From Protonemura montana (Eukaryota; Arthropoda; Insecta; Plecoptera; Nemouridae), in assembly GCA_947568835.1 (NCBI GenBank), contig OX387605.1, positions 13,954,418 to 14,018,417 on the forward strand: a stretch of DNA of 64,000 nucleotides, read 5' to 3'. This document shows positions 1,538-45,400 of this stretch, piece after piece (positions within the stretch are counted from its first letter, which is position 1; the number at the start of each line of letters is the position of its first letter). Under the pieces are notes generated by a model that searched no databases, was not told the origin of the DNA, and saw only the letters and a program-made list of their open reading frames with translations. A program made the translations under genes and the position numbers.

Positions 1538-3143
1538 TTAGATGTATAGAGGTGTCTCTTGGCCCGTCAACAGTCGGAACATAGACGTTGGCATTGTTTT
1601 CATCAGGATCTGAAAGCAAAATGGTTAGTTCAGGACATGATCGTTGGTAAGCATTTCAGTGATTGAAGATTTGATTCACTGGTGTGTATCAAATAAATTA
1701 AAACTGCTTTAGTATAGGTACATTTTTAGGTATAGGTATATTTAGTATAGGTTTAATATAGGTAGTATAGGTAATTATCTCCTTCATACAACTAGGAAAT
1801 CCATTTTCATTTGGTATTGTCATTTATTATTTTGTTTAATGATAGTTGCTCACCTCCCCTACTGATGTAGCCAGCAGATTGACGATCTTCTCATGTGGAA
1901 CTGCGACTACGCTCTGGTTGTTGATCTCGATGATTCGGTGGCCAACACGGACACCCCCCCTCTCTGCAATTCCCCCGCGTAGAAGACTGCAGATCTGGGT
2001 ACAAAATAAAACTCTGCACGCTCACTTCTGCGTCTTTCGAAAGCATTCAGTCACTTCGAAGTCTATAAGTGTAGCGATGTCTGTCAATGACAGTAGTGTA
2101 AAAGTAAAAATAATTGTATGTAACTCAGTATGCAGTGTACTTATATAATTTGGCCTATGCTACAGTTGAAAGTGAATTAACTGAGGAAGAGGTAGGAAAG
2201 GAATGCAACTGATGTCAAAATGGCCGAAATGAAGTTACAACATTTTGACTGCTGTCTTGTAAGGGGGTGTTCACAACTTCTCCACGTGAACAAGGCAGCA
2301 GCCAAAGTGTTACACCTCTTCCACCTTTCCCAGTAAGCCAATTCAACTTCAGTAAGTTGCGTGTCCTTCTTTCCACTTTCTCAGTTCACAAAGTTTCTGG
2401 GAAAGATACAAGTATATAACCTTTGATTACTGATGTTGTCATAATCAAAAATAAATATATAATCAGTGCAGCCCTAAATACAGCTGACGATAAATTGTTC
2501 TAACGTACCACTCCATTCTGCACGCTGAATCCTAGCTGATATTTGGTGTCTGGTCGTTTTATCTTCACCTCTACCACGGGTGCACATGGCACAACAGTCA
2601 GCTTCACCACCGTTTGGTTCTTGGTATTCTGAAATCACATGTAAATTGCTTACATTATGAGGATGTCGATAAGTAGGACAAATTCATCAATATTCAAAAT
2701 AAAGAAGACCACCCAGGATATGGTGAGTGCACAGAGATATTTACTTGGTCGATTTTCAAACAAATAAATGGCATTATTTAAATATTTGAAAGAAAATGAT
2801 GAAACTCTGCTTTGGCAGGCTTAATTATTTGTCACAACATCTTTTTTCTTTCCTTCCCTGCTGTGATCCTGTCTTGTGGCACCCTTACCTACATACAAAC
2901 ATAAATAGAAACTCTTAAAAATGTCCCAACCTTAATGTAGTTCTGGCACGTGGATAGAGGCAGGCCGACGAGGCTGACCCCGTTGATGGCAATGATCTGG
3001 TCGCCGATGTTTAGCTGACCGCACCGCGCTGCAGCCCCCGCGGGCGCCAGGTTAGCGATCACCACAGTTGGCAGCATTGAACCCCAGCCAGACTCAACAA
3101 TCACCACCCCCAGGATTTCGTTCTTTGCTTTCGGCACCACCAC
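1538..3143 (-). other. Mint exons 20-23: tandem PDZ domains and C-terminal tail
   Basis: Exon 2931-3143 encodes PDZ1, with the family signature [20 protein letters not shown] and [20 protein letters not shown]. Exons 2509-2628, 1854-1994 and 1538-1609 encode PDZ2, with [25 protein letters not shown] and the terminal [12 protein letters not shown]. All four exons are whole codons in length (71, 40, 47 and 24 codons including the stop), so all introns here are phase 0. These are the best conserved exons of the gene and fix its identity. Confidence 0.95.
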
Positions 3144-6100
3144 CTGCACGCACGGAGCACCACTTCGTGACTGCACAGTTTCTCAAATGATGATTATATT
3201 TAACTTATATTTATCTACACTTGAGCTTAGATTTTTATCTTGTAAACAATTTGACTCTGGCAGTAATGGGTTGAGTAATAACTTGTACATAATCATTAAA
3301 TACAACAAAAGAAGATAATGTAACAAGCAATTCAATATAATTGCTTTTCAAATTAGGCCACAACACAATCCGAGCATCAGTATGAAAAATATGACATGTC
3401 CCTTGCCTCTTTCTGCATCTCTTTTTTGGCAAACATCTGCAGCTCATCGCCGAAGATTTCTTGCGAGTTGAGTACCTCTTGATAGTCCATCTCCTTGACA
3501 AAACTGTGGTCCTCAATACCGTTGGCCTTGAGGAATTCCATGTAAGCCACCTGGAACGCTTGCCCTATCGACTGCGCTATGAACTGAGCCTGCATAACCG
3601 AGACCAAACAAGACAAGGTTAATAAACGAAACATTGCGGATAAACAAATAAAATGTGTTATTTTTTAATAACAAAATTCCTAGATACATTCAGACAATTA
3701 CCTCCTCGCTCTCAAAAACATGGCATATCATTTTCGGTGTGCGGTTGACCTTAGGAGGTTCCTCGAGGTCGTGGGGAACAAAACGTCGGCGGGCCATTAG
3801 CACGACAAGGTCGCCAATGTCCGCGATGTAAGAGATTGTGCGCAGAGCGTGGTCCATCATAATCTCCTGCAAGCCACAAATCCGAGTTAAACCTGTAATA
3901 TCTATCTAGCGCTCGCTTAGTGTTTGGCTAGCTATCACTGATTGGTGGTACATTTCATCAGTTCATCCATTGACATACAAAACTCTCGAGCTTTTTCTCT
4001 AGTTGAATATACCAATTCGTTTGAATCAAATGGTACTTACCATCTAGCCAACAAATAAAAAATAAAATAAAGAATGCAGTTTTAATATGCTGGCAAATTG
4101 TCCATTTAGGTAGTTCTGATTTTGTATATTTTGTTCTTATTGGCAACTGATGACAACATGGTTGCTGCGCAAGTTAATTTTTAAAAAATTGTCTTAATAG
4201 TAAAAAATGTTAAAGTTACATTTCTGTTATCTACCCCTTTTTATGCAAAGGTATTATTTAGGCCAGGAAAAATTCTTGAAGGTCATCAGTTATTCATTAC
4301 CTTGAGATCCGTGTTGAGGACCATTATTTTCTCCGTCGAGATAAAAAGGTCGACCTCCGTGCTCGGTTGTGTTTCACCTTCCGGCGCCTGCATTCATAAT
4401 ACAATTATTATCCCTGGCCAACGAACACAGATATAGCACTGCAGTAACAATAAGCACAATAAATAGGCAACAGATAGGAATTTAAAATTTTAATCCAGCG
4501 CTAGACTTACCAATGCCTACAGGAGCCATTGAGTGCGTGGGGAAATAAAGACAGCATTGTAATCAGAGAGAACAGGTTATTTTTAAGTAAGTAATCTAAA
4601 TACTAGAAAATTGCATCAAATCATAGTGAATTTTATCACTAGAACGTACCAAAAATTCAATAGATTTTAACTAAAATACTCTTACATCTAGACATGAAAG
4701 TTCAGAAAAATATGATTGATACTGATTTGTGATACATTGTTATTTTGTTGCTTCTCTTTGGGATAATCTACCCTACTTCTAAAACGCAGTTATCAAAGTC
4801 CCTTGTCATGATCTCTTAAGCAAGGAATAGTGAAGGTATTCTGCTTATTGCTTTCAAATAAATTTATCAAGATTGCAGTAAGAGCTTGAATTAGACTGCC
4901 ACTTTATCCTTTCGAGCACTTTATCAGTCTCAAGCATCACTACACAAATGCTTCAGAACCCTTGGCAATCACACAGCGTCCTTAATCGAGGCCAACGCAA
5001 GCGAAAAGCAACACCTTAATCTTCGCGACGGCTTCCTCCACCATCAACTTCTTGAGCCGTTTGCGCCGTTTGCGGCCCGCCTCCTCGTCGACTTGTACTG
5101 ATCCAACGAATGAGAGCCTGAAAACTGTGGGCCGAACAGGCCCGTCGTCCAGCAAGCCAAGCCCCTCGAAGAGAATAGGGCCTCGGCAACCAGCCACGTG
5201 CTGCGATTGGTTGAAGCCAGCGACCGAAGCGTCCTGCAAGCCGACGGCTCAGTCCGTGCGGCGATAGGCAGACTCTCATAGGGACAGGACAGGGCAAAGG
5301 AAAGATGGCGCAATAGCGTTGAGTAGATTGTCTCGAGACAAGAGAGAAAAGTTTGTTGCCTTTGTCATCTTGTCTTATGAAGACAGATTATGGGATATGG
5401 CCGATGAGGTGTTGTGAATGGGAGTGTTTGATAGTGTTGAACTTGCAATCAATGATGGTGAATCAGATGCACTACTATTAGCTTTTTAGTTTTTAAGACT
5501 TGTGTAAAAGCTTTCAAACTAATTAAAAAGATCGTTAGACTGTCTCATTTGTGTACCTGTACTCTAGTAATGCAAATTAGCTGTGTTAGAGAGAAAACAT
5601 GCTGTTTAAAACCGTGTTTGTGGTGTGTAGCAAGTTACGTAGCTAATGTTTAAGATAACACTTTTTTATTTTGGTTCCCAGCAAAATAAACATAACAAAA
5701 TCCATGCCAACATGTGTACGAATACTCATAAACAAAATTATCAAAATCAAACGCGACCAGAAGGAAAGAGGTCGCGAGGATAAGTGCTTCGAGAGACTGG
5801 CTATCGCTGCAAAGATACCGAGTCGGTTGTTCATCTGTCGTCTCGATGAAGGCGGAACAAAACGTTCTCGTATTAGTAAATAGCACGTCGAACCATCTCA
5901 GTTTGGTAATCGGAAGTCATTCGCCAATCAAAAGCTAGACATTGAATGTGCTGCATGTCGGTGAAAGAGTGAGTAATCACAACAACGAAACCAAGCGACA
6001 ACAATCAGAAAACTCAACGGTTTGTGCACGAGTGGTGTGAGTGAAATATATCAATAAAGTAATAAAAAGTGAATGAGTGAAATATAAAGAGATTGTGCTG

Positions 6101-9100
6101 TTAAAGACGAGACACGAGTGAGGGGAGAGAGACGACAGATGAAACAACAATCCAACTAATCGGACGCATCAGCCAACAGGCACCAACCAATCACAGAGTT
6201 ACACGTGCTCCGACCTTGAACGACGGGCCAATTCCGCTCCGGTTTTCAGCTTCCGAGTTATTCGTTCGAAGGCCAATGAAGTCAGAGCTACCAGGGTGTT
6301 GTTTTCTCACAAAAGCCCCTAGGTATTGAGATATGATATTTCTTTCACTAGTTAGTCCGGAAGCTTACTATCACAAAATCGTTCAGGCTATTCAACAACT
6401 AGGCTAGGTGCCGTTACGTGCCGTTGTCATTAATATCTCAGCACAACTAGTTGAGATACAAAAATGTAAATATTAACTCAGCTGTATTTTGAAGTACAAA
6501 ATTGATAGGCAGACTAAGTTGATGAATAGTCCTTGGCTTTAGGTACCAGTAGACGTTAACTTCTAGGACTATATAAAAAAAAAAATGTCTTGTCTGATAT
6601 TCAAAACAAGGCACGTAAACTTAGATTAATAAACACTACGCCTAGCAGGTAAAATAATCTTCTGCAGCTATTTTGCATAGCAGTAAGCAAGCGTTAGTCT
6701 AAACTACGAGGGACTAAATGCATAGAACTTTATAAAATATGCGATACAATGCCTACCTGTGAACCTCCGTAAGATAAAAGCTCACTGAAACTTTTCAAAG
6801 AGCAAACTCCCCGACTCAATTTTATGACGATGACCCGATTATTATGCTCCTGGATGGCAGCCAAACTTTCAGCGTATTTAAAAGCAGGAGCAAGGGTAAC
6901 ATACTGCCGACAAACTTACCTTGATCCGCGATACTGCTTCTTCTGCCTGCATCATGCGAGTCGACTTAGTGGGCTGGCCTTCGCAAACTAGCTGCGTAGA
7001 GCCGAGGTAATGTGCTCGAAACAGAACTCCTTCTATGAGTACTGCAGGTTCGTGGATCATAACTGAAATAGGGAGACAGTTTGAAAAAATGTTGTCTGAT
7101 GTAGTGAGTTGAGGCATCTAGTCTTACAAACTACGCTATGCCAAAAACTACAAGCTTTATTTAAACTATACATCAGAAAAGATGGTTTTTGACCAGGTGA
7201 GCTGAATATTCATTGCTACAAAATTGCACTTATATCAACTATCTACGTGAAAAACCAATCTTATTCTTAGCTAGTTTCTAAAAGCTGTTCAACACAATTC
7301 ATGCCTTCTCTACAAAAAAATAGTTTTGAAAGTAAACCAAAATGAGACATTAAGTATAAAATAAAGATAAAAACTCCGGTATATGAAGAAAAAATTATTA
7401 CTAACAATTAAGGACAAATGAAATTAAACACAATAATCACTCGGGAAGTAAAAATCTGAACATTGCATTTTCGGATTAACGTTCAACTTGGCAACGTCTA
7501 GCCAACCAGTCAACACTCGTACGACAACAGGTGAAGTCATGCGTTAAGCCGAGAGCGGTGCCTGCTCACTTACCGTGGTAAGAACGCGCGCGGCGCGACG
7601 GCCATGTGCAAGAAAGTAACAGATATGTATCAGACTCACACGAATCAACACTTCACTAGTGCCAAACACATCACAGCAGCAGCAGCAGCAGGGGCTTTGT
7701 ATTTACATTTTTACACACGCCACCGGGAATTTCAATAGCTAGGACGTGACTGTTCATAACTAATTGTAAAATGACTTTAAGGACGATCAAGTAATGTTAG
7801 AGACTATCTTGAATATTTTAAAATTCAAAATCTTTCTGGAAGCAAGACTTGTATATCAAATTAATGTATATGTTATTCAATCTTTGTTCCCTCAGAATTG
7901 TATCCATAAAGTAAGTCTAAATTTGAAACGAATGTCACAATTTGACAAAAAGGGCATACAATAGTTTCATACTTCAAACCTATCAGATCATTCACTGAGT
8001 CAAACTCGAAGTTAAGATTGGATACATATCAGATTTATTGCTTTCCACTCTTAAATTTCTTGCAGCCATTGTTAAGTAAATTACCTAACACTGATATTGA
8101 CAAGGAGAATATTTTTTGATCTATTAGACCGACGTTTAACAAACTCACGTCAATGTTTTGATTTGATGCTCGTAACCGCGCAGGAATTCTGTGTTGCATC
8201 GATGACATACGTTTAAAGTGACGTTGAAAGCAGCTGTAGTGATGACTGCTATGGCTACTGTGCGAGACAACGTGAGCACTAACCGCTAGTCCAAGTTTGC
8301 TTGTGCGACTGTGCACAAGTGTTTCAAACTCAACAACGTACAATGTGTGCGTTCGTGAGATGACGGCACATTGTTTTGTCCCACACAACATGGCTATGCT
8401 ACTGATCTGCTACTGTGCTGCTGCACAGTTTTCTGTGCTCGAGTACAGAAAAAGTATTATCTGTATCTCCCTAAATATGTTATTTATTATTATTGTCAAA
8501 TAATTAAAATTTGCATAGAGGTCTGATGGAAATATCCTGTTTTCCTCTCAATTTTCAACAACTTGATACCAGAATTACCAATTTATAAACTTTTCTTTAT
8601 TATTTAATGCATTCTTCCATAACCCTAATTCTTTATAATTCTTCATAGTCCTGTAAAACTCAAAATGTGAACCTTTTATTAAGATTCACAAAATGGCTGT
8701 ATTAGATTCCTAAAAACCTCCCGAGAGTGATTTTTGCTCTTACCTTCCTTGTTGCGTCCTTTCTTCTTCGTACTCCCATCTTTATCCTGCAAAGAAAGAA
8801 GCGACGCTTTAATATTTACAGTTTGAATGCGCTATTTTACAGCCATGCAAAACTTCGTGCATGGTTCAATTTGTAGGTATTTAAATGCTGAGAATACACT
8901 GCAATGGGCAGTGAGCAGCAGAGTTCACGGCTAAGCCAACGTCATGCTTTGCGACGGTCAAAGCTAAAATCTAGAACAGCGAGACATTGCTGGCCCAGAT
9001 TAGAAAAACAATCAAGCAAATTAAAAAATATGTCATATAATGACTAGCAGAATTACTAAAGAGATCAATTTAACTGCCAGCAGGTAATTATTTAAAACAA

Positions 9101-12100
9101 AGCACATACAAACTTGTTTTAATGGGAAAAAAATATAATCTTAACATTTTATAAACAGGAAATCATGCTGTAGCAAAGTGCCTAAAAACATCTGCAGGGC
9201 ACAGCTGCCATAACTACAGCTAAAAAAAAAGTCAAGTCACTTCTAACCTAAAAACTGCATTACTAAGAATCTGTGAATTATAATAAAAAAAAAACAACAA
9301 AAAAAAACACATGGTATGGCATCATGTTATGCATTTGAGTCAGGCAGCAAAACAGTCGAGTGAACCAGCGTTGCGGGATGCAGGATACGTCGCGAAAAGC
9401 AGCACCTTCTTGGCCTTCAGCGCCGTATCTTTGGCGGGCGACAATGCCTTGTCCCCGTTCTCGTCTTCGACAACGACGGCATCGCTGGTGCCAGGGGCTG
9501 CGGAAGCGGCATCTACAGGGGGAGAGTTTGGGGTAGCCACCGGCGGTAGCTTGGGGGCAGAGGTCGGCAGCTTGGTTGTCGCTAGTGGCGTCGATGTCTT
9601 GGACGCAGCAGCTGATGGCATCACCGTCCGCGACTTGGGCTTGCGCCAACCCTGCGATCGAATCACGCCAATACGCTGAGCATTGTGCGATCGATTTTGA
9701 GGATCAGTGGAGGCTAGGTTAATATGTTGTAGGTGAACAGTATCGATTTCCAGAGCACACATGATGCACTCTGAGAGATCGCACTTACGCATGACAGTGC
9801 ACTTACGCATGTTTGGGCACAGAAAAAACTTGAAATGAACATTATTATATGCAATTAAAATGTCAACATACAAACAATGGCATTTAACAGTTGAAAAAAA
9901 CTGTGCTAAAAAAACAATTGTGATAATGGGGCATTGTCTAAAACTTTTAGAAACTAACAATTTCTTCAGTCAGAATATCTGCTGCTAGCCTGACAATTTA
10001 CCACTTACATTTTCCTTCCTTCTCACCTTAAGTTTAATAAGCAAAAAGATTTAGTTTTTGGAAAACCAATTCAACAACAGACATTGTATTGTGTGCCTTA
10101 GCCAGTGCTTTAAAAGTCTGTAATTAAGTTTAGTTTCACTTTCTACTGACCTTGTCGTCGAAAAATCCGTGGTCATCGATCCGCTGCTGTCCAAGAAGCC
10201 GATCCGTTTCCAGGTCTGTGTCCGCTTCTACTGGGGAAACAAACTCTTGTCAGAAAATAAACACTATTTTCATCCGAACAGAACAACTAAAAATGGTGCT
10301 GAAAATCAATGTCATGACGGCTTTCATGCCATATGATTACTCTAAGGGACCAAAGCATGCTAACATATTTTTCAGTGAGAAATTCCTTAAAATCAGTTTT
10401 TTACTAATAACGAATAAGTTGGATGTATGTGTAGGCAAATAGCTGAATTTTACATTAAGAAAAAACTCACACAGATTGCATTGACTAGCATCTATTTTTG
10501 ATTAACACATATTTTATCCTAACATATTTTTGGAGCAACTAATTTGGCTACGATCATAGTTCATACAACTTTTCGAACCTCTGAATGTGCTAAGATTATG
10601 TTCAAAATCAGTGCTTGATGAATTCTTAATCACAAAAAGGTGCATTCTGGCGGTAGAACAGCGTCCCTACCTTCATCACCATCTTCCTTGTCCCCCCGGC
10701 GGCGTGGTACCCACACAGGACTGGCTGCATGATCAGGACTGTCACTAGCCGGGCTCTTGAGTGGCTTGGTTCTCTGCAAAGCCAGCCGGATGTCTTTGAT
10801 GGCTGCCTCCACGGAATCACTCAGCCCGAGCGAATCCAACCCACCCCCGCCACCACGGTGAGGAGCCGGTGCAGGCGGTGGTGGCGTCATTCCGGCCGCT
10901 GAAACGCAGCACAAGCTTGTTTACAGGGTTGTTTTATTGGTGTCAACGGCAGGGTTTTTGTCCATGTAGTGATGCAACGAATGCATAGGAAATTAGAGAA
11001 GCCAGGTTCATAAGTCCAGTAATCGATTATCAATGTATGTAGCCTACCAGGTGTATCCATCTACAGCCTTTGCACTCACTTCAAATGATTTAACTAAAAT
11101 AACATCTATTAATTATTAGAAACACCACTAACCTCTCAAAAACCTCATCTTTTTCATTAAAGATGACAGATTTTCATCTTTCATTATTCTCATGAAATGC
11201 AGTAAAACCCTCTCGAAAATGACATGTCCAAGAAGTTTAATTGGTTAAAGCAACACCCGCAACTGGTAGAGATTGGAGTTTGAGACCCCGATTGAGCACC
11301 TATTTTTGAGAGGTTATTAGTGTTCCTGATAAAAAATAACACTTTGCCTATTGCAGGCACTTGCAATTTATATCAGATTTCACAACATCTATTAAAGACG
11401 TGTTTTTATGACACACTTGCCATCTAATTACCTCAACACACAATTTAATGCAACTTGGAACAAGGCATCATCTGCTCTTTTTGTCACATGGGAAAAAAAC
11501 TGAACCAACTCTAACAGCAGTATGAATGAGCAGTTTTTATAGTTTTAGTAAAACAAGGTATATAAGTGTGGCATTTACGATGCATCTAACTAATCATCTT
11601 ACCACGTTTCTTCTGTAATAGTATTCTAAACGCTCCCATTTATGGATGCATTCCACATCAAAGCCATTTCAAATGCACTCTGCATAGCAAGTAACAAACA
11701 GTGACACACAACCTTGTGTATGCACTTTTATGGTTGCTAAGGCGATTGAAATGGATCTCGTACCTTCAATAAAAACATTGGTCTCAGGCAACCCTTTAAC
11801 GTCTCATGTTGTTTGTTTCCTTTTATGTAAGTGACCCTGACCCTGAGTGACCATAATCTCAGGAAATGAAAAAATGCATTAAAAAATTATACCAATTAGC
11901 ATGCATATCTTTCACCTAGCTATTTGCTATTATGAAAACTTTGTGCCGAGTGCCATTTCGTTTGAGATTTAGTGTAATACTCATAACTTCATTAGCAAAA
12001 AATAAAATACATAAAGCTGCAAAATGCACTAAAAAGAGAAAACTAAACTTCATAAAAAATTTAATAAAAAGAGAAAAAGAACACAAAAAAAGAGAAAATG

Positions 12101-18100: not shown

Positions 18101-21100
18101 ATTTCCATGACAACGAAAATTTTCAGATTTTGTGTTAACTCTTCATTGTTCCACAACAATTTCCATGACAACGTTTTTACAAATTTGAACGAAAATTCAA
18201 TGACAGAAAGTACCAAAGAAGCATACCAAAAGAATTGTGTCACGAAGACCTAGTTCATAGGAACATTGCAAATTTGACAATTTTAGCTCTGATAGTAAAA
18301 GCACTATCATACAGCCATTGAGTTTACCAACGGTTGTTTTACCCAACGATAAAATGAATATTCTCCCACAACATAAGAATTCCACGAAACGTTTAGAAAT
18401 TTGAGAACCTCAATAAGTCTAAGAAGTTTCGTTTGCATTCTGAATGACTTGGCTAACAAGGATCGCACCCACATATATACAAGGGTCTTACCTGGAACTC
18501 CGCTGAGCCTTCTTCGGCCAAGCTGGGACACTTGAAGAACTCTTCGAGAACCTTGCGGGTCTCGGAGAACTCATAAAGGTAATCAAACGTTCCGCCAGCA
18601 AGTGTTGGGCTGAGTGCTGGTGGCTCGCAGTCCGCTGCAGCCGGCAGCACTCTCTGCAGACAGGCATGGAAAATGCATACATTAGAACATTTGCTTCGGC
18701 TGAATTTAGAAACGCATACGTATCTTGACAATTATGTTAGATTTCTCTCAGATTGAAAGAGCTCAGGCACATTAACCTGGCAATCTAACCCTGAATCCAA
18801 TAGTTCAGAAGGTTGAACAAGGTTGAACCATGCATGATTTCAAAGGATTTACATAATTTCTTGCAAACCTTTGGACTAACTTGAAAATTCAAAAACAAAT
18901 TCAAAATTCGATTTCGATAACAAATATTATTTTTTAACCTGTTTTGAAGATGAACATTTTAAGATGAATCACAGAATAATATTTTCTAGTCCCATACAAA
19001 TTCCCAACCCTATATTTAAAATTTAAAACGTGTACAGCATGTAACGTTTAAAGTAATATGTGGATCTTTCTCAAAACTTGATAGAATTTGTTGTCATCCA
19101 GTTCTGGGCTATGTTTATAATTTCAAGTCTCTCGCTCATTGGAAAGTTTGTTTCACATCAACTGCAAAATGTATACAAGACAGACAGGCAAGAAAGCGAC
19201 CTAATAAAAATGCGTTATCAGGAAAACATCGGGAAGTACTACTTAGCCGCAGAGGGGATACGATTGTGGAATAATCTGCCGGGAAGTGCGGTTATACCAC
19301 TAGCAAAAAGCTCCAAAGAAATAAGACATAAACTAAATAATATACAAACAACCTAGCAAAACAACCGATAGCATTTTAAATTGAATAAAATGCATGTCAA
19401 AATTGTGTAAAAAAAAAAATAACAGATAAAAAAATTTAAAAATGTGGACCATCTTGATCAAAGCCTTCAAGCTTTGATTGAAAAATGAATCTAACAATCA
19501 ATTGATTAATTATTCTATGAACAAGTCACCAAATTTACCCGGGGGTATTCGCTTCTAGCAACTCATGTAAACATTAACACTACCAACAATGTTTATATTG
19601 TTCTTACATAAATATTGTTGGTTTTGCTATTCTCATGGTAATGCATACTTTAAAAAAAGCCAATTATGTTTAGAGCTGAATTTGTAACCCATTGAGTTTT
19701 TAAAGCACACCTCGAGTTAAAAAACTCTAATTAAAAAAAACTTGCCAGAAAAAGAATCAACCACACATCTTTTAGTAAAAATACTTATGTGTATCAAAGA
19801 AATTACACTAAATTACATCAGTTCCACAAACAATATCACATATACATTGTCAAACATATCATCACACATTGGGTACCAGATAAATATGAAAATAGTAAGT
19901 CCTTTTACAATTTCAAAGATAATCATTCTCATTTTGCTAAATCCCACGAGGAACAAGTTGTAACAGCTTGTTACTACAAAAAAATTAGCAGTTATCTACA
20001 ATTATAGAAAGAATATTAAGCCTTTCGTCCTTTTCAGCAAATCATACACATAACGAAAGACATCCATGCATCGTTTTCGTTCAGCAGCTCAGGGGACTAG
20101 TGGCTGAGATACAATGGCGGCAACTTCAATGGCAGCAACCAGGATCCAGTAACACAAACAGCACAGAATTGGAGCAACAGACATCAAAACAGGTGCGCCC
20201 CACTAAAAATTATTTTACATTTATTTCAAAGTGAGGGAGCCGACATCAACGTCAAGACATCAATTTTCATCGCAAAACTTGCAAGCTTTGGTAAAGCCGC
20301 CGTTCAATAAAGAAGGACAAGACTCGGAGCTAGAGTCATCAACGAAGAGACAACAAATTCCATCGCAAAATGTGCTAGCTTTGGTGAAGCCACCATGCGA
20401 TGATGCTGAAAAATGTGCTAGCTTTGGTGAAGCCGCCTTTCAATGAAGGAGGACAAGACGCAGAGCCAAGGTCATCAACATCGAGACAACAAATTCCATC
20501 GCAAAATGTGCTAGCTTTGGTGAAGCCGCCATGCGATGATGCTGAAAAATGTGCTAGCTTTGGTGAAGCCGCCTTTCAATGAAGGAGGACAAGACGCAGA
20601 GCCAAGGTCATCAACATCGAGACAAGAAATTCCATCGCAAAATGTGCTAGCTTTGGTGAAGCCACCATGCGATGATGCTGAAAAATGTGCTAGCTTTGGT
20701 GAAGCCGCCATTCAATGAAGGAGGACAAGACGCAGAGCCAAGGTCATCAACATCAAGACAACAAATTCCATCGCAAAATGTGCTAGCTTTGGTGAAGCCG
20801 CCATGCGATGATGCTGAAAAACGTGCTAGCTTTGGTGAAGCCGCCATTCAATGAAGGAAGACAAGACGCCGAGCCAAGGTCATCAACGTCGAGACAACAA
20901 ATTCCATCGCAAAATGTGCTAGCTTTGGTGAAGCCGCCATTCAATGAAGGAGGACAAGACGCAGAGCCAAGGTCATCAACGTCGAGACAACAAATTCCAT
21001 CGCAAAATGTGCTAGCTTTGGTGAAGCCGCCATGCGATGATGCCGAAAAATGTGCTAGCTTTGGTGAAGCCGCCGTTCGATGAAGGAGGACAAGACTCGG

Positions 21101-24100
21101 AGCTAGAGTCATCAACGAAGTGACAACAAATTCCATCGCAAAACGTGCTAGCTTTGGTGAAGCCACCATGCGATGATGCTGAAAAATGTGCTAGCTTTGG
21201 TGAAGCCACCATGCGATGATGCTGAAAAATGTGCTAGCTTTGGTGAAGCCGCCTTTCAATGAAGGAGGACAAGACGCAGAGCCAAGGTCATCAACGTCGA
21301 GACAACAAATTCCATCGCAAAATGTGCTAGCTTTGGTGAAGCCGCCATGCGATGAAGGAGGACAAGACGCAGAGCCAAGGACATCAACGTCGAGACAACA
21401 AATTCCATCGCAAAATGTGCTAGCTTTGGTGAAGCCGCCATTCAATGAAGGAGGACAAGACGCAGAGCCAAGGTCATCAACGTCGAGACAACAAATTCCA
21501 TCGCAAAATGTGCTAGCTTTGGTGAAGCCACCATGCGATGATGCTGAAAAATGTGCTAGCTTTGGTGAAGCCGCCATTCAATGAAGGAGGACAAGACGCA
21601 GAGCCAAGGTCATCAACGTCGAGACAACAAATTCCATCGCAAAATGTGCTAGCTTTGGTGAAGCCGCCATTCAATGAAGGAGGACAAGACGCAGAGCCAA
21701 GGTCATCAACGTCGAGACAACAAATTCCATCGCAAAATGTGCTAGCTTTGGTGAAGCCACCATGCGATGATGCTGAAAAATGTGCTAGCTTTGGTGAAGC
21801 CGCCATGCGATGAAGGAGGACAAGACGCAGAGCCAAGGTCATCAACATCGAGACAACAAATTCCATCGCAAAATGTGCTAGCTTTGGTGAAGCCGCCATT
21901 CAATGAAGGAGGACAAGACGCAGAGCCAAGGTCATCAACGTCGAGACAACAAATTCCATCGCAAAATGTGCTAGCTTTGGTGAAGCCACCATGCGATGAT
22001 GCTGAAAAACGTGCTAGCTTTGGTGAAGCCGCCATTCAATGAAGGAAGACAAGACGCAGAGCCAAGGACATCAACGTCTAGACAACAAATTCCATCGCAA
22101 AATGTGCTAGCTTTGGTGAAGCCACCATGCGATGATGCTGAAAAATGTGCTAGCTTTGGTGAAGCCGCCATTCAATGAAGGAGGACAAGACGCAGAGCCA
22201 AGGTCATCAACGTCGAGACAACAAATTCCATCGCAAAATGTGCTAGCTTTGGTGAAGCCACCATGCGATGATGCTGAAAAACGTGCTAGCTTTGGTGAAG
22301 CCGCCATTCAATGAAGGAAGACAAGACGCAGAGCCAAGGACATCAACGTCTAGACAACAAATTCCATCGCAAAATGTGCTAGCTTTGGTGAAGCCACCAT
22401 GCGATGATGCTGAAAAATGTGCTAGCTTTGGTGAAGCCGCCATTCAATGAAGGAGGACAAGACGCAGAGCCAAGGTCATCAACGTCGAGACAACAAATTC
22501 CATCGCAAAATGTGCTAGCTTTGGTGAAGCCACCATGCGATGATGCTGAAAAATGTGCTAGCTTTGGTGAAGCCGCCATTCAATGAAGGAGGACAAGACG
22601 CAGAGCCAAGGTCATCAACGTCTAGACAACAAATTCCATCGCAAAATGTGCTAGCTTTGGTGAAGCCGCCTTTCGATGAAGGAGGACAAGACGCAGAGCC
22701 AAGGTCATCAACATCAAGACAACAAATTCCATCGCAAAATGTGCTAGCTTTGGTGAAGCTGCCTTGCGATGATGCTGGTTAAAGTGTTTGTCTTGGTGTA
22801 GCCCTGATTAGCAGCCGGCGTTTGCTGTCCTTTGTATTGCCTCACTGTGTACTCCTTTACTGCCTGTCACTCCCTGCAAAGTTTAGGAACCTTGCAGGGG
22901 GCGAGATGAGAGACAGTAAAGGAGTAGACAGTGAGGGCGCACCTTCAGTTTCAGAGAACGTCGACAATCACAACAACAGTTACATGATGATGGCCAGACG
23001 TCTACGGGCTACTTGAGATGGACGACTTACTATGGATGTAGAACTTAAGATGCGGGGGATCCTGTGAAGACAGTACACTGACACCTTATACTTACAGAGG
23101 TGCACCTTATTTGATATTATTCATTTGAAGTTCTTATTACTTTTCTAATCAGATCTTGAATGTTTACAGCTGCTGTGTTAGTAATTTGGATTGATTTTTG
23201 TTTTCTAGGTGAACTCATCCACCTGACCAGTGTGCTGTTCGGATACTAACCTGTGGGAAGCCTGGTCGCGGCGGGTAGACGGAGGGAGAAGCAAGGAGAC
23301 TTTGTGCGCTCGGCAGCGTGGGGTGCGAGTTTGCATCGGGGGCCCGCGGCCCGTATCGTCGTGGGGAGCCCTCGTAGTCTGCAATGGGGAGCCCGCCAAT
23401 GACGCGGCCAACTTTTGCTACGAGCTCTGGGGATAGCGAGTTGCCATCCAGATCTCCTGACGTTACCGCCTGATTAAGACAAAATTGATTATTTTAGCAA
23501 TCCCATTTATTGTTCTGTGCTAATAAAATTGAAATCTATTTACTGGTGAAACTGTTGTTTATATGTGTCTGTCCCGATTTTTTTTTTTCCTGTTTAGCAA
23601 TTGCAATACGGATGAGATGTTAAGATAATTGATATGGCACATTTATCAGATGGTGTCTGATACAGGAGAAAGGAGCAAACATTGCTGAAATAGGGATGAG
23701 GGAATTAATACACAATGATTGATGTCTTTAATTTCTTTTGAGTAGTCTTTCTTTACACAACAACATCGTACCTTGAAGAAGTCCGATGCATTCCGGTGGT
23801 GAGTGGGCGGGCTGGGCAAGCTCTCATCAGTTGAGTCTGGCTCTTCCTCCTTGGCTACGCCTCCTTGGCTTCCATTGTCGGCCCCCAGTAGGCCATCTAG
23901 GCGCAGACCACGCCAGTCGTCGTCAATGTCATCAAACACGACCACCTCGCCCTTGCTCACCGACAGCGGGCTTTGAGTGTCTGGTGGTCAACAAAATGCA
24001 GTTTAACAATTAGTGGTTTGCTCATGTGATCAAAAACACATTTTCAAAGATGGGCATTGAAAGCAAAAAAACAAAACAAAACAAACAACAATGTGTGATA

Positions 24101-27100: not shown

Positions 27101-30100
27101 GGGTACAATGCACATAAGAAACACCAACTATTTCAAGAGCAAATGAATGTTTTCAATGTTTCCAAAGTCTAAAGAAGTGAATTATACTTCAAATAGCAAG
27201 AAGCAAATGTATGCTAAAATAAGCTGTCTACAAGTTGCAAAAAAAGGTCAATACAATGTATTCATCAGATTTTTTGGACCACTCGGTTTACAAAAAATTG
27301 GGAATAACTAGTACATTACAAGGTTTATCTACAGTTTAAGCTGTGTAACACCAACGTTTACTAAGTAATGATAATCAATATGTCTACCTGCCAAGAGTGC
27401 AGTCGTGTAGCAAATTTTTCTCACTTTTCAAAATACATGTTAATTAATTAGTTGAAATGAATGAACAAAATATAATGATCACGACAGTTGGATTGTGCTA
27501 TTTACTTCGACTGAAAAACACAACATTTAGTAATCTTCTTTAAAAATGAGTCATAAGTCCTTCATAATAGAAAAGGAGGATGCCCTGGTCGTTGAAATTG
27601 TAGCAGAAGAACTATCTCCCTTCCAGATTATGACAAACCTCCAATAGAGCTAATTTTAGAAGCGAATTACAAAGCCTCCTGATTAAAGGCAAATATTATT
27701 CCTGTAAAGAATTTTTAGCAACTAAGATATAAATTTATCTTATGTATTCATGACTATGTTCACATAATTGTAAAATTGTTTAATGAACTGCTATTAAATA
27801 AATAAATAAATAAATATCTGCAAAAGTGAAATTTGTGTTGGCTTTAAGTGCCCAGTGATATATGAGCATGTTTTTCCATGGCTTGTCACCATGGAAAAAG
27901 AACGGTGACAAGCGATGCTGCAATGATTACTCTGCAGCCGGGCTAGCACAGTCAGGTAAGATCACTTTAATTAATATGAGCCATAACTCTGAGCAGTTTG
28001 ATTGCTTAATGAAGCAATCTCGGAGATTTGCAAAAACTTTTGTGAAACAAGTTTAATAAATGTTAGGTTAGGTTTTTTAGGTTTTAATTTAACTAATTTT
28101 CAATTGTAAAATTAATTGCATATCCTCAACTTCAATCCTGCTTCCATATAAAGCGCATCATCACAGACTGTTTCCAGAATTTTATGGGTTAATACCATAG
28201 TGGTAACACCTTAATCACTTAATGTATGGGCTTATTTATATGTTTATTTAATTAAAGAATGTGGCCGCTGAAATACAACAGCATTATTTTATATTTAAAA
28301 AATACAATGGTAATTTATTTTCACTAGTTTCAGAGACTTTGCTGATCACCTGTCTAAGGAGCAAGGTTTGGCCTTTCAGTGACCATTCAATTCGAAATGC
28401 TAGGAATTTCTCGACAAGTGCATCACACAATGCCAATTTCTTATCCGGTAAGTTGGGCTTCCTTTCTCTTTCCTTTTTCACCACAATGCAATGCTTTGTG
28501 AAATTCGAACAAGGAGTCAGAAGGTGACAAACATCCTCTAAGTCATCTAGTTATTTATACTTATTGTGTAATTTCCTACCTAAAAAGTTATCTACCTAAA
28601 ATTATTGCACAAATTCACTTTTAATCTTTGTGCAGCCTATTAATTAGCCTTGCTATTTGAAAATTGTCTATTCCGCTCTGGCCCAATTTTTATCGCCTTG
28701 TGTTTATTTTGTATAAGTTGATTGCTGTTAAAGTAATTTTTTAGTAATTGATTCCTAGCTTGGACAACCATGGAAAAGAAAATCAGGTAAATCAGGTAAA
28801 TCAGGTCAATCATGTTCATCACATGATAGACATGATTTATTATGCATCAAAATTGATGAGTGCTATTGAAACTGTTTCAGAACCAGAAAGGTCAGCGACA
28901 TTTATTTCAGCTGCTCAACCACTGCCACCAGGTCAACACATGTCAGCTGCGCATCTTCGTATTTCTTATGTGATTTTTTTTCAAATCGTAAATTTTTCAT
29001 TCTTATATATTTCTGTTCAAATAATTATTTAAAAATTTGAAAACAACGAAAAGCGGTCATATCATTTTCTAAGTTAGGTTGGTCTCTGATTTGTGAATAG
29101 GTGTATAGTGTCAAGCACACCAACCAATTTCACTTAGATTCAAAAAAATGTAGGCCGAATTTTTCAGACATTTTTTGTTTGGCATCAAGCTTTTAAGAGA
29201 CTTCCCTTACAGCATGCGGTGACATCTTACACTTGTCTAGGTGACCAGCCTGCTAAGGCCTAAAACAGACCCCAAACTTTGGACTTTTGCTCTCAAATAT
29301 ACAACCACAGAACAAGTTCACAATAGTGCTACAATTATTGACTGACAGCTTCGGCTGGTATCCATCCAGCCGAAGTCATGCTGCCACCGCAGATAGTACA
29401 TTAGTGGAGTGACGTCACGCTAGAGGCATGCAACATTACTTAAATTCTTATTGCAGTGCGTTTATTAACTGTGATTTCATGTCTTCATCTTGTCAATAAA
29501 TTTAAAAAATTTAAGTGCTTTAAGGAAAACACTGCTAATTTAGTTCCACCTGTGTTGATTTCCAGAACTTTTATCATATCCTGACAAAACTCCTTTAACC
29601 TTAAGGTCTCCTGGATGAGGAGTCAGATTAAATTAGATCCACTGGATCTAGATATTAGATCCACTGAATCTAGATATCAGATCCAATGCTCCCAGGTTTC
29701 AGATCCACTGGATATGATTATATACAATACAATTTTATACAATACAAAACTGGATTCAATAATATCTAATTTCAATTTTGACTAGATCCAATCAGATCTG
29801 AATCAGATTCAATCATATCTGAGTAAGATATTATCATATCTGGAAAACGGCAGAACTAAAATACAATAATATATGACTGGACGTATGAAATTCATATCTG
29901 AATTCAGTTCCGATCAGATCATTACGTTTCATCAGGGTTGTCACAGCCTATCACTCCCCGTCACCCCTTCGCTCATAGGAAAGTTGTCTTTTTCATGGAG
30001 ATATGGGATTACATTTTCATCCTACTGAAAGACAGTAAAGTTCTGCTAAACTGGTCTCTAGCAATAACTCTAACAAACAAACACAATGGGTAAACCAGGA

Positions 30101-42414: not shown

Positions 42415-45400
42415 TCACGAGGTGTCTTCTGTGGAGAGTCGACTCCTGGCTGTCGGAGATGGGTGACCCGCCTTACTCATGGAGTTCACAGCTACTGAAG
42501 ACCTGCCAGACGATAAACAAACATTGTTGACCACATTTTTCCTGAACATATACACTTGGTTTCAAAGTAACTGCAAGTGTTTCTTTTATTACTTCCCAGT
42601 TTTCTTTAATGTGTTTTTTTTAAACATCGATAAAAAAAATCATGAAAAGCCATGCAGCCAGAGTAGTTGCTTGCCCAGTCTATAGCTATCTTTTCTCACC
42701 GTGGTGTAACCGCAGCGAACCATACCTGTTGTGTCGGAGATGGCTGCGCACAAGGTGCCCAGCGGCCAGCGCGGACATGAGCGACAGCTCGCCAGCGAGC
42801 ACGGTGCCGCACACAATTCGCGCGAGCGTGTTGGCGTTCTCTCCCGGCCGCTCCACGTTGGCGCCTCGCACGCCCAGCATTTCGAGGCACGCAGACTGCG
42901 GTGTGAGCACGGTGCCGCCGCCGATTGTGCCAATCTCGATGGATGGCATCGTGCATGTCACGTACAGGTCCTCTCCGTCCTCGCCCCACGGCTCCATTAG
43001 CGTCATGCAGTTGCTGCTGCCAACGTTCTGGGCGGGGTCCTAAAGACAAAGGGTGTACGTTAGCATTCATTTATGTTGTTTAAGTTTTATTTGTTACGTT
43101 AAAATGCTCCAGACAAACGGGACGAAGTAAAAATTTACACAATTTTATGTAGAATACTAATTACGTACATAATGCATTTTTATCAATGACCATAGTACCA
43201 AGATAACACAATAAAATAATATATAGGTTTAAGTTGCTAATAGGTACATATAACAATAGGCTTATAGGCTTATGAGCTAGTTCTGTTGAAAACAAAGCTG
43301 TTGAAGCTTTTTGATTGAATCACTATCAAAATTGGCATTGGATTTATTTAACTGATTTTAATTGAATAAGAGTGGAAGATTGAAATTGTGTTAGATTAAT
43401 ATCTGATGCTTAATGAATGCTCTCTGCGCCACCCCGAGCTTAATCCTACCTGTCCAGTGGCGATAAAAATTGCCGTGACGATGTTGGCTGCATGCGCGTT
43501 GAAACCACCGATGCTTCCTGCCATTGCTGAGCCGATCATATTCTTGCTGATGTTGACGTCGACGAGAGCATGCACGGATGTCTTGAGCGTGCTTGTTACG
43601 ATGTGAGCCGGCACCACCGCCTCGCACACCACCGACTTGCCACGACCCTCAATCCAGTTCACCGCCGCCGGCTTCTTGTCCGTGCAAAAGTTGCCACTCA
43701 GGCTAAGCAACTCCATGTCCGGGAACTCTTCTTGCACTGATTTGAGTGATATCTCCGTGCCCTGTTGACAATGGCGATGTTTTGTGGGAAGCAATTTGGA
43801 ATTTTAATCATGGCAAATGAGTAAAATTGTGGCAGTTAACTGCTGAGAAGTAAAACAGACTCATCAATAACAAAAACTATCTGAACTGGGCTTTGAATGC
43901 TAAGTAAAGAACAACTGAATTTCCTAACGTTTCGTTAACTTGTACCGGTTACTTCTTCATGAGCAGTCCTGACAATTTTCCCATAAAAGAACCGCACAAC
44001 ATTTTTATCGGAAAATTGTCAGGACTGTTCTTACCTTTGAAGAAGTAACCAGTACAAGTTGCGAAACGTTGGGAAATTTAGTTGTTCTTTACTTAGCATT
44101 CAAAACCCAGTTCAAATAGTTTTTGTTAAAACTAGTGCTAAGGATAAATCAAGTAGACGAGAGTCTAAAATCAGACTCTTAAATGATGGGTTTTAGACTC
44201 ATGCCTACTCGTCCAATGTTCACAGAATATTTCAACTGCTTTTACAATTCAATGTTAAATAGAAGTTAACCTTATCATTAATCAGAGCCAATTTATATGA
44301 ATGTATCACACAAGTCTCATTGTGTAAATTTAGTGATACAAGATTAAAACTATAGATACTGCATCCAGTAGGTGCAGATAAAATTGTTAAGATATTGTAA
44401 AGGAGCATTTAGCATAAAACCTTAGGAAGTGGGTTGGCCCTCAAAAACCTGTATCAAACAGGGACAAAAGATTGTTAGAGCTGTTAACATTTGACCTATC
44501 TTCAAGTAACTTGTGCACCTGAAAGTGAAATTGAAAATGTACTTGCTGCAATAACTTACAAGTTGCAAGGATATCCTACGACATGCATTCAAGGAAATAT
44601 TAAAAAGTGCTGTACGTTAGAGAAAGGCATCTCAAGAACCTTAAGAACACCATAATCATACGTCAACTGCTTAACTCATCACAAGGCACTCACCTTCGAG
44701 AGCATGTTCATGCCCATCGCGTCGCCAGTGGTGGCTACAAAGCGAATGAAGAGATGCCTGCCGGCGATACGGATGTGGAGCTTTGTGAGCCGTGCAAACC
44801 GGCTGGTGGAGTCGAAGCTGGTCTTCATCTTGTCAAAGTTATCTTGCTTCTCCATCCACGCCATGGCCTCGCTGGCCCGACCAATGTTCGGGAAACGCAC
44901 CACAGGGCCACGAGTCATGCCATCAGCAACCTGAGCAAATGGTGTGGACGTTAACAGCAAAAAACAGCAAACATTTTGTCATTTGTCTTATTACAAATGT
45001 GTTGTGTAGCTACATCAAAGATACGTGTTTTAAATCAAAATGGTAGTGTGCTGTTAGTGTTGATTTAGGCATGATTAAAAATGGTAAACCATAAAACTAG
45101 AAGAAATGCAAGTAACTTGGTTAGTGTTGCCCCTACTACTTCTAGCTCAGCATGTCAGTTACTCTGTTGCAATTTTTAATCCACAGAAGAATTTATTATA
45201 GACTTAAACATACCTGAAGCCTATTTCTCTGCAGTCGAGGTACATCTTCTCTTTGAATACCATCGACTCACTTTGAACCCACCTGAAGGTACAAGACTCA
45301 CCACTTTGCTGTTGACTCCGCATGTGGCCAGCGCTCTGCACCCGCGGTTGGTGCTTGCAACGAGGCAGCCCTCAGTGGTCGCCATAGGCACGTAGATGGG

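Follow-up and report, generated by a model that had tools for sequence, protein, structure and literature searches.

Does the Mint/X11 gene of Protonemura montana carry two interchangeable versions of the exon that begins its PTB domain? Mint/X11 is an adaptor for nerve-cell membrane traffic; its partners are APP-like cargo, Rab6, and components of the synaptic release machinery. Within the window, the whole 64,000-nt stretch of DNA analysed here, the first 10 kb hold on their minus strand the C-terminal portion of a Mint/X11 (APBA) gene. In this gene, the intron between PTB exons Eb and Ec holds a 110-nt candidate exon, here called exon X (Table 1), which the initial annotation proposed as an alternative to Eb.

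Table 1. Positions in the window of the Mint/X11 exons, of exon X with its splice sites, and of the inverted repeat.
Feature	Positions	Strand	Remarks
Upstream exon Ea	8744..8786	-	14 residues, ends in phase 1; deduced from splice sites and reading frame
Default first PTB exon Eb	6920..7062	-	143 nt; matches human Mint1/Mint2 PTB chains 4dbb, 1aqc, 3sv1, 3suz
Inverted repeat, 5' arm	6162..6276	+	in the intron between Eb and X
Inverted repeat, 3' arm	5093..5234	-	covers acceptor and first 32 nt of exon X
Possible 5' extension of exon X	5125..5181	-	needs weaker acceptor 5183-5182; phase-compatible, 167 nt total
Exon X acceptor AG	5125..5126	-	10/16 pyrimidines at -20..-5
Alternative PTB exon X (candidate)	5015..5124	-	110 nt, 37 residues, phase 1 in, phase 0 out
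Exon X donor GT	5013..5014	-	AAG/gtgttg, 6/9 consensus positions
Second PTB exon Ec	4301..4387	-	29 residues, enters in phase 0
Third PTB exon Ed	3702..3866	-	
Last PTB exon Ee	3407..3589	-	
PDZ1 exon	2931..3143	-	same gene

The gene was recognized by Eb, which matched the human Mint1 and Mint2 PTB chains with E-values of 2e-11 to 9e-11. Downstream of Eb, three further PID exons are followed by exons that we take to be the PDZ exons of Mint. Ee seems to end in a GC donor (GAG/gcaagg, 3405-3406, minus strand; slashes mark splice boundaries), which would make the intron before PDZ1 a GC-AG intron.

On the minus strand, exon X reads cacag/TTTTCAGG...AAGATTAAG/gtgttg. Its coordinates, its 110-nt size, and its entry and exit phases (G/TT ... 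KIK/) were all as first annotated. The splice sites of exon X fall inside the range of the gene's other exons. Its acceptor has 10 of 16 pyrimidines, compared with 8-14 in seven other exons, and a C at -3. Its donor, which is without G at +5, shares its 6/9 value with three of the eight other donors (9406, Ee, and PDZ1); this is the weakest value among the nine examined, and the donor of the default exon Eb scores 9/9. A 167-nt form (5181-5015) is possible but less likely than the 110-nt form; its acceptor is poorer, with G at -3 (gag) and 8/16 pyrimidines.

A 17-nt element, AAG/gtgYtgcttttcgc, is common to the exon X donor (5001-5017, minus strand) and to 9392-9408 (minus strand), the likely donor of the exon preceding Ea. 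Four matches to this element were listed in the 258-Mb genome, and none to its backward control. The wider likeness of the exon X and 9406 donor regions was reached by 37 of 500 shuffles, so only the 17-nt core is notable. The element, noticed after the fact, is possibly a shared regulatory donor.

The likeness between exon X and the PTB exon, as claimed initially, was borne out. Smith-Waterman alignment of exon X with Eb gave a score of 50, with 13 identities in 35 aligned codons; none of 20,000 shuffles of exon X, in which the first residue was kept, reached that score (mean 18, maximum 41). Phase-compatible AG...GT segments of 80-200 nt were collected from both strands of the whole window and ranked. 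Among the 2,422 segments, Eb came first and the exon X place second (51 for the longest version, 50 for the 110-nt exon); the next unrelated segment scored 34. WebScipio-type scoring, with rules from the available part of PMC3228551, was re-implemented with GT donors only and used to rank 2,333 segments. The global score against Eb, as a fraction of the self score, was 0.133 for the 167-nt form and 0.079 for the 110-nt form, and 0.008 for the next unrelated segment; the end-free score was 0.207 for the 110-nt form versus at most 0.095 for unrelated segments (n = 2,333). The 15% default was reached by neither form (7.9% at 110 nt, 13.3% at 167 nt); this value is a setting of the software and does not define mutually exclusive exons. 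With such scores, exon X would escape a default search for duplicated exons.

In a Pfam search spanning 24,736 models, exon X alone matched PID (PF00640) with 13.3 bits (E = 0.087), below the 20.9-bit cut-off. Ec, although accepted as an exon, falls short of this cut-off too, with 19.7 bits alone and 15.6 bits in the genome scan, both above exon X. Residues 1-36 of exon X and residues 14-47 of Eb were both placed on PID profile positions 1-34, and the two exons end at the identical profile position. The profile did not match the 88-aa open frame, nor the 167-nt form at E up to 10; the genome-wide PID scan, with the latter limit, listed Ec and not exon X. No match to exon X was found by phmmer in PDB. 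GC-rich stretches yield long chance open frames and the Pfam match alone is sub-threshold, yet several partly independent tests (shuffles, codon positions as given below, WebScipio-type ranking, and Pfam placement) agree, and the similarity stops at splice sites of matching phase, in the right intron and on the right strand. Chance likeness in a GC-rich intron was rejected on these results and is extremely improbable. Judged by sequence comparison, exon X is homologous to the default PTB exon Eb, with no counterparts of the 11 Eb residues before FR.

Other origins were weighed in the organism's own genome (258 Mb, 34 contigs). A second Mint gene as the source was rejected, as Eb and exon X were each listed once. 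Another PTB gene was rejected as well, as the best match of exon X is Mint: the score was 50 for Mint and at most 38 in a six-frame search of 16 other PTB loci. The PTB exons of two of these loci, L016 and L019, are presumably Dab- and Shc-like; they have the pattern F.....G..(E/Q)V.E..G in common with exon X, but score 38 and 37 and are without its long basic stretch. A repeat-family origin was set aside after DNA searches with the 110-nt exon, a 1501-nt piece, and two 231-nt pieces listed only the exon X locus itself, although absence of a match in such a search does not prove rarity. As expected, no relatives were found for Eb in bacterial, archaeal, and viral contigs, or for exon X in viral contigs.

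Other features lie outside the Mint gene. The 15,885-bp mitochondrial contig carries trnL(UUR) between COX1 and COX2, and its order of tRNA genes is the ancestral one of insects and crustaceans, consistent with a pancrustacean arthropod. Window positions 20280-22772 hold a tandem array with 93/136-bp and longer units and long minus-strand open frames. On contig C4, 5760925-5762262 matched COX1 with a score equal to that of the mitochondrial contig C34, and a partial match lies at 5776811-5777755; either mitochondrial DNA was recently copied into the nuclear genome or the assembly is at fault here.

The pattern of differences between exon X and Eb carries a coding signature. Identity was 18/35, 19/35, and 9/35 at codon positions 1, 2, and 3, respectively, and 37/70 (positions 1+2) differed from 9/35 (position 3) with a Fisher p of 0.007, in an alignment built from the amino acids, a choice that favours positions 1 and 2. 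The GC content of the three codon positions was 62/32/70% in exon X, similar to the 62/35/64% found over 310 codons in conserved exons of the gene. Neutral drift from Eb was simulated with equal-rate substitutions and no indels, using 20,000 runs per setting. At 1.0 substitutions per site, 0.27% of runs kept an open frame with a score of at least 50, and third-position identity was 45%; at 1.5 substitutions per site, the values were 0.01% and 35%. The observed third-position identity is 26%. Because open high-scoring copies are rare in simulated drift, exon X has probably been selected as a PTB segment. This selection probably spanned most of its life, as far as the signature tells, and the signature is silent on present use. 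Exon X is very likely a real, selected PTB exon.

Sequence signals of this kind are no measure of present use, and exon X may be a recently dead exon, one that was long a working alternative and is no longer spliced in this species. The donor without G at +5, an acceptor inside a predicted duplex (see below), and the missing counterpart of the residues before FR are consistent with this. However, neither the frame nor either splice dinucleotide nor the exact boundaries have been lost, and by d = 0.2 the frame was already broken in about half of the simulated copies (open 0.494; substitutions only). Recent death of the exon is unlikely in our judgement.

The reading frame bears on how exon X could be used. 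The lengths of exon X (110 nt) and Eb (143 nt) are both 2 modulo 3. Paper splicing gave open products for Ea+Eb+Ec and for Ea+X+Ec, a stop after 26 residues of exon X for Ea+Eb+X+Ec, and a stop after 4 residues for Ea+Ec. Either exon alone keeps the frame and both or neither breaks it; hence, exactly one of Eb and exon X can serve. The initial claim that using both breaks the frame and using either keeps it was confirmed. Exon X and Eb share entry and exit phases, the frame demands one of the two, and their lengths of 37 (or 56) and 48 residues lie within the 20 aa given for mutually exclusive exons in the available part of PMC3228551. The stop reached after 26 residues of exon X would also allow a poison cassette, in which exon X is added after Eb to lower Mint levels. 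Such a cassette does not need the phase-1 PTB frame, yet the selection signature sits in that frame; this use is very unlikely.

We assign a probability of roughly 0.7 to the reading that exon X is a true coding exon, which arose long ago by tandem duplication of the first PTB exon and is used today mutually exclusively with Eb. Exon X would replace Eb in some cells or stages, and the products of double inclusion and double skipping would be removed by nonsense-mediated decay. Like the mutually exclusive exons predicted by WebScipio, as described in the accessible text of PMC3228551, exon X is a homologous exon in an adjoining intron, with the same phases and a similar length (37 versus 48 aa). 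Unlike them, it scores below the 15% default and is known from genomic sequence alone.

An inverted repeat may bear on the choice between the two exons. The 3' arm is an inverted, gapped copy of the 5' arm, with 85 identities and 20 mismatches in aligned columns; alignments scoring as high were obtained from 0 of 200 shuffles in one run and from 2 of 1000 in another. The predicted duplex energy of the exon X acceptor region with the intron was -51.4, compared with a mean of -33.5 (SD 2.6), and none of 100 shuffles was as low. The acceptor G (5125) is paired with 6242 in the predicted folds of both 2,532 and 1,371 nt, with a probability of 1.00. The foldback of a 1,211-nt stretch had a z-score of -5.3 (20 shuffles). 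Among 26 spaced same-strand comparison stretches (one overlapping the 1,211-nt stretch), two fold more strongly, namely 28810-30020 (z = -9.8) and 43330-44540 (z = -12.6), both on the minus strand and with 6 shuffles each. The inverted repeat is therefore real as sequence and uncommon, but not unique. Arm pairing was -64 at exon X, against a mean of -29; the next-best sites were 7602-7513 (about -49 kcal/mol) and 7032-6973 inside Eb (-44.6), all as raw energies. Stem mismatches gave no clear signal of RNA-level selection (7 G-U versus 4 A-C). The modelled foldback over the 3' splice site of exon X is a possible control element, and it would keep the exon off by default.

GC- and CpG-rich sequence in this part of the intron raises the alternative that exon X belongs to a shorter transcript with its own promoter at 5400-5000. 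GC reaches up to 0.61 and CpG o/e is 0.98-1.10 at 5000-5399, but the open stretch that reaches back to 5248 holds no in-frame ATG ahead of FRLSF; two longer frames in this region were judged by eye only. This origin of exon X is highly improbable. A different segment, 7605-7574 (minus strand) in the intron before Eb, contains an ATG, is CG-dense, and ends with a strong donor, CACG/gtaagtg. CpG o/e is 1.52 at 7400-7599, and Eb starts with TT-ATG-ATC. The 7605-7574 segment is possibly an alternative promoter for a short PTB-PDZ-PDZ form that starts from MIHEP.

We take PID positions 1-34 to comprise strand 1, the turn, and helix 1. The initial annotation had described a swap of the first strand. 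Strand 1 would indeed be replaced; the exchanged piece is larger and also includes the turn and helix 1 (PID 1-34). The basic middle of exon X also stood, with a net charge of +6 versus 0 in the default exon. The turn of exon X, VQVDEEAG, resembles the PTB turns at L016 and L019 and is followed by a basic run toward helix 1. Folded alone from the single sequence, exon X was modelled as one helix (9-35) and no strand, a result of low weight (pLDDT 74.8 for the best model, 57-60 for its others). Eb folded alone had a pLDDT of 66.6, with strands at 6-9, 12-19, and 23-26 and a short helix at 39-42. The strand missing from the exon X model means that this prediction is no support for the strand 1 and helix 1 reading. 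If exon X is used as the preferred reading proposes, its isoform would combine PTB strand 1 with a longer basic helix 1, and this helix would offer acidic lipids or partners an additional surface, at a distance from the NPxY groove.

In Dab-like PTB domains, the peptide lies on strand 5 and the C-terminal helix (PMC11889595, available part). Later exons, shared by both forms, would supply strand 5 and the C-terminal helix; hence, the swap probably keeps the NPxY groove and alters another face of the PTB domain. For the Mint1 PTB domain, the consulted part of PMC10820826 describes a second site for peptides, on the side of the domain that faces away from the NPxY groove, and this site may be altered by the swap. 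An extended version of the preferred reading holds that the 3' splice site of exon X is locked by the foldback and that opening of the foldback switches Mint from an NPxY cargo adaptor to a form held at acidic membranes or on a new partner by its basic helix; we consider it doubtful.

Among the matches listed in the open full-text literature, we saw no description of mutually exclusive exons for a Mint gene. This agrees with the initial annotation, which knew of no such Mint isoform. The Mint literature consulted for isoforms includes the available parts of PMC11405698, PMC10820826, and PMC3667844. Among the matches listed in open full text, PMC10484994 was the only paper found with both 'mutually exclusive exon' and 'X11L'; its accessible text notes that in fly X11L the choice of 3'UTR goes along with a slightly displaced upstream 3' splice site.

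The closest known parallels to exon X are two cassette exons; in both, a short PTB segment changes lipid or partner binding and leaves the canonical site in place. Exon 6 of vertebrate Mint1 (APBA1) is an 11-aa cassette (aa 495-505), and the Mint1 826 isoform, which lacks it, allows Rab6 binding and keeps APP binding (PMC3667844, available part). Exon 6 lies in the same intron as exon X, for the exon 5/7 primer in the accessible text of that paper encodes S-R-I-K-A-P, compared with RIK/AP at the Eb/Ec junction. However, it is skipped or included as a cassette, whereas in the present gene strand 1 and helix 1 would be exchanged together as a complete homologous exon. Exon 3 of vertebrate Numb, in the consulted part of a review (PMC11889595), is linked to greater PI4P affinity and to binding of the MDM2 acidic domain. 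Like exon X, it supplies a positively charged PTB segment off the canonical peptide groove; unlike exon X, it is an 11-aa cassette with no exon swap, in a different PTB subfamily.

The vertebrate Mint PTB domain is tuned by a short cassette exon, and the arthropod strand-helix module would use the same intron. If exon X is used as proposed, one junction would have served on more than one occasion to control a PTB domain by splicing. One gene would then yield two adaptors, one of them with a strongly basic patch, and the pair would be a natural swap experiment on the role of the PTB basic face.
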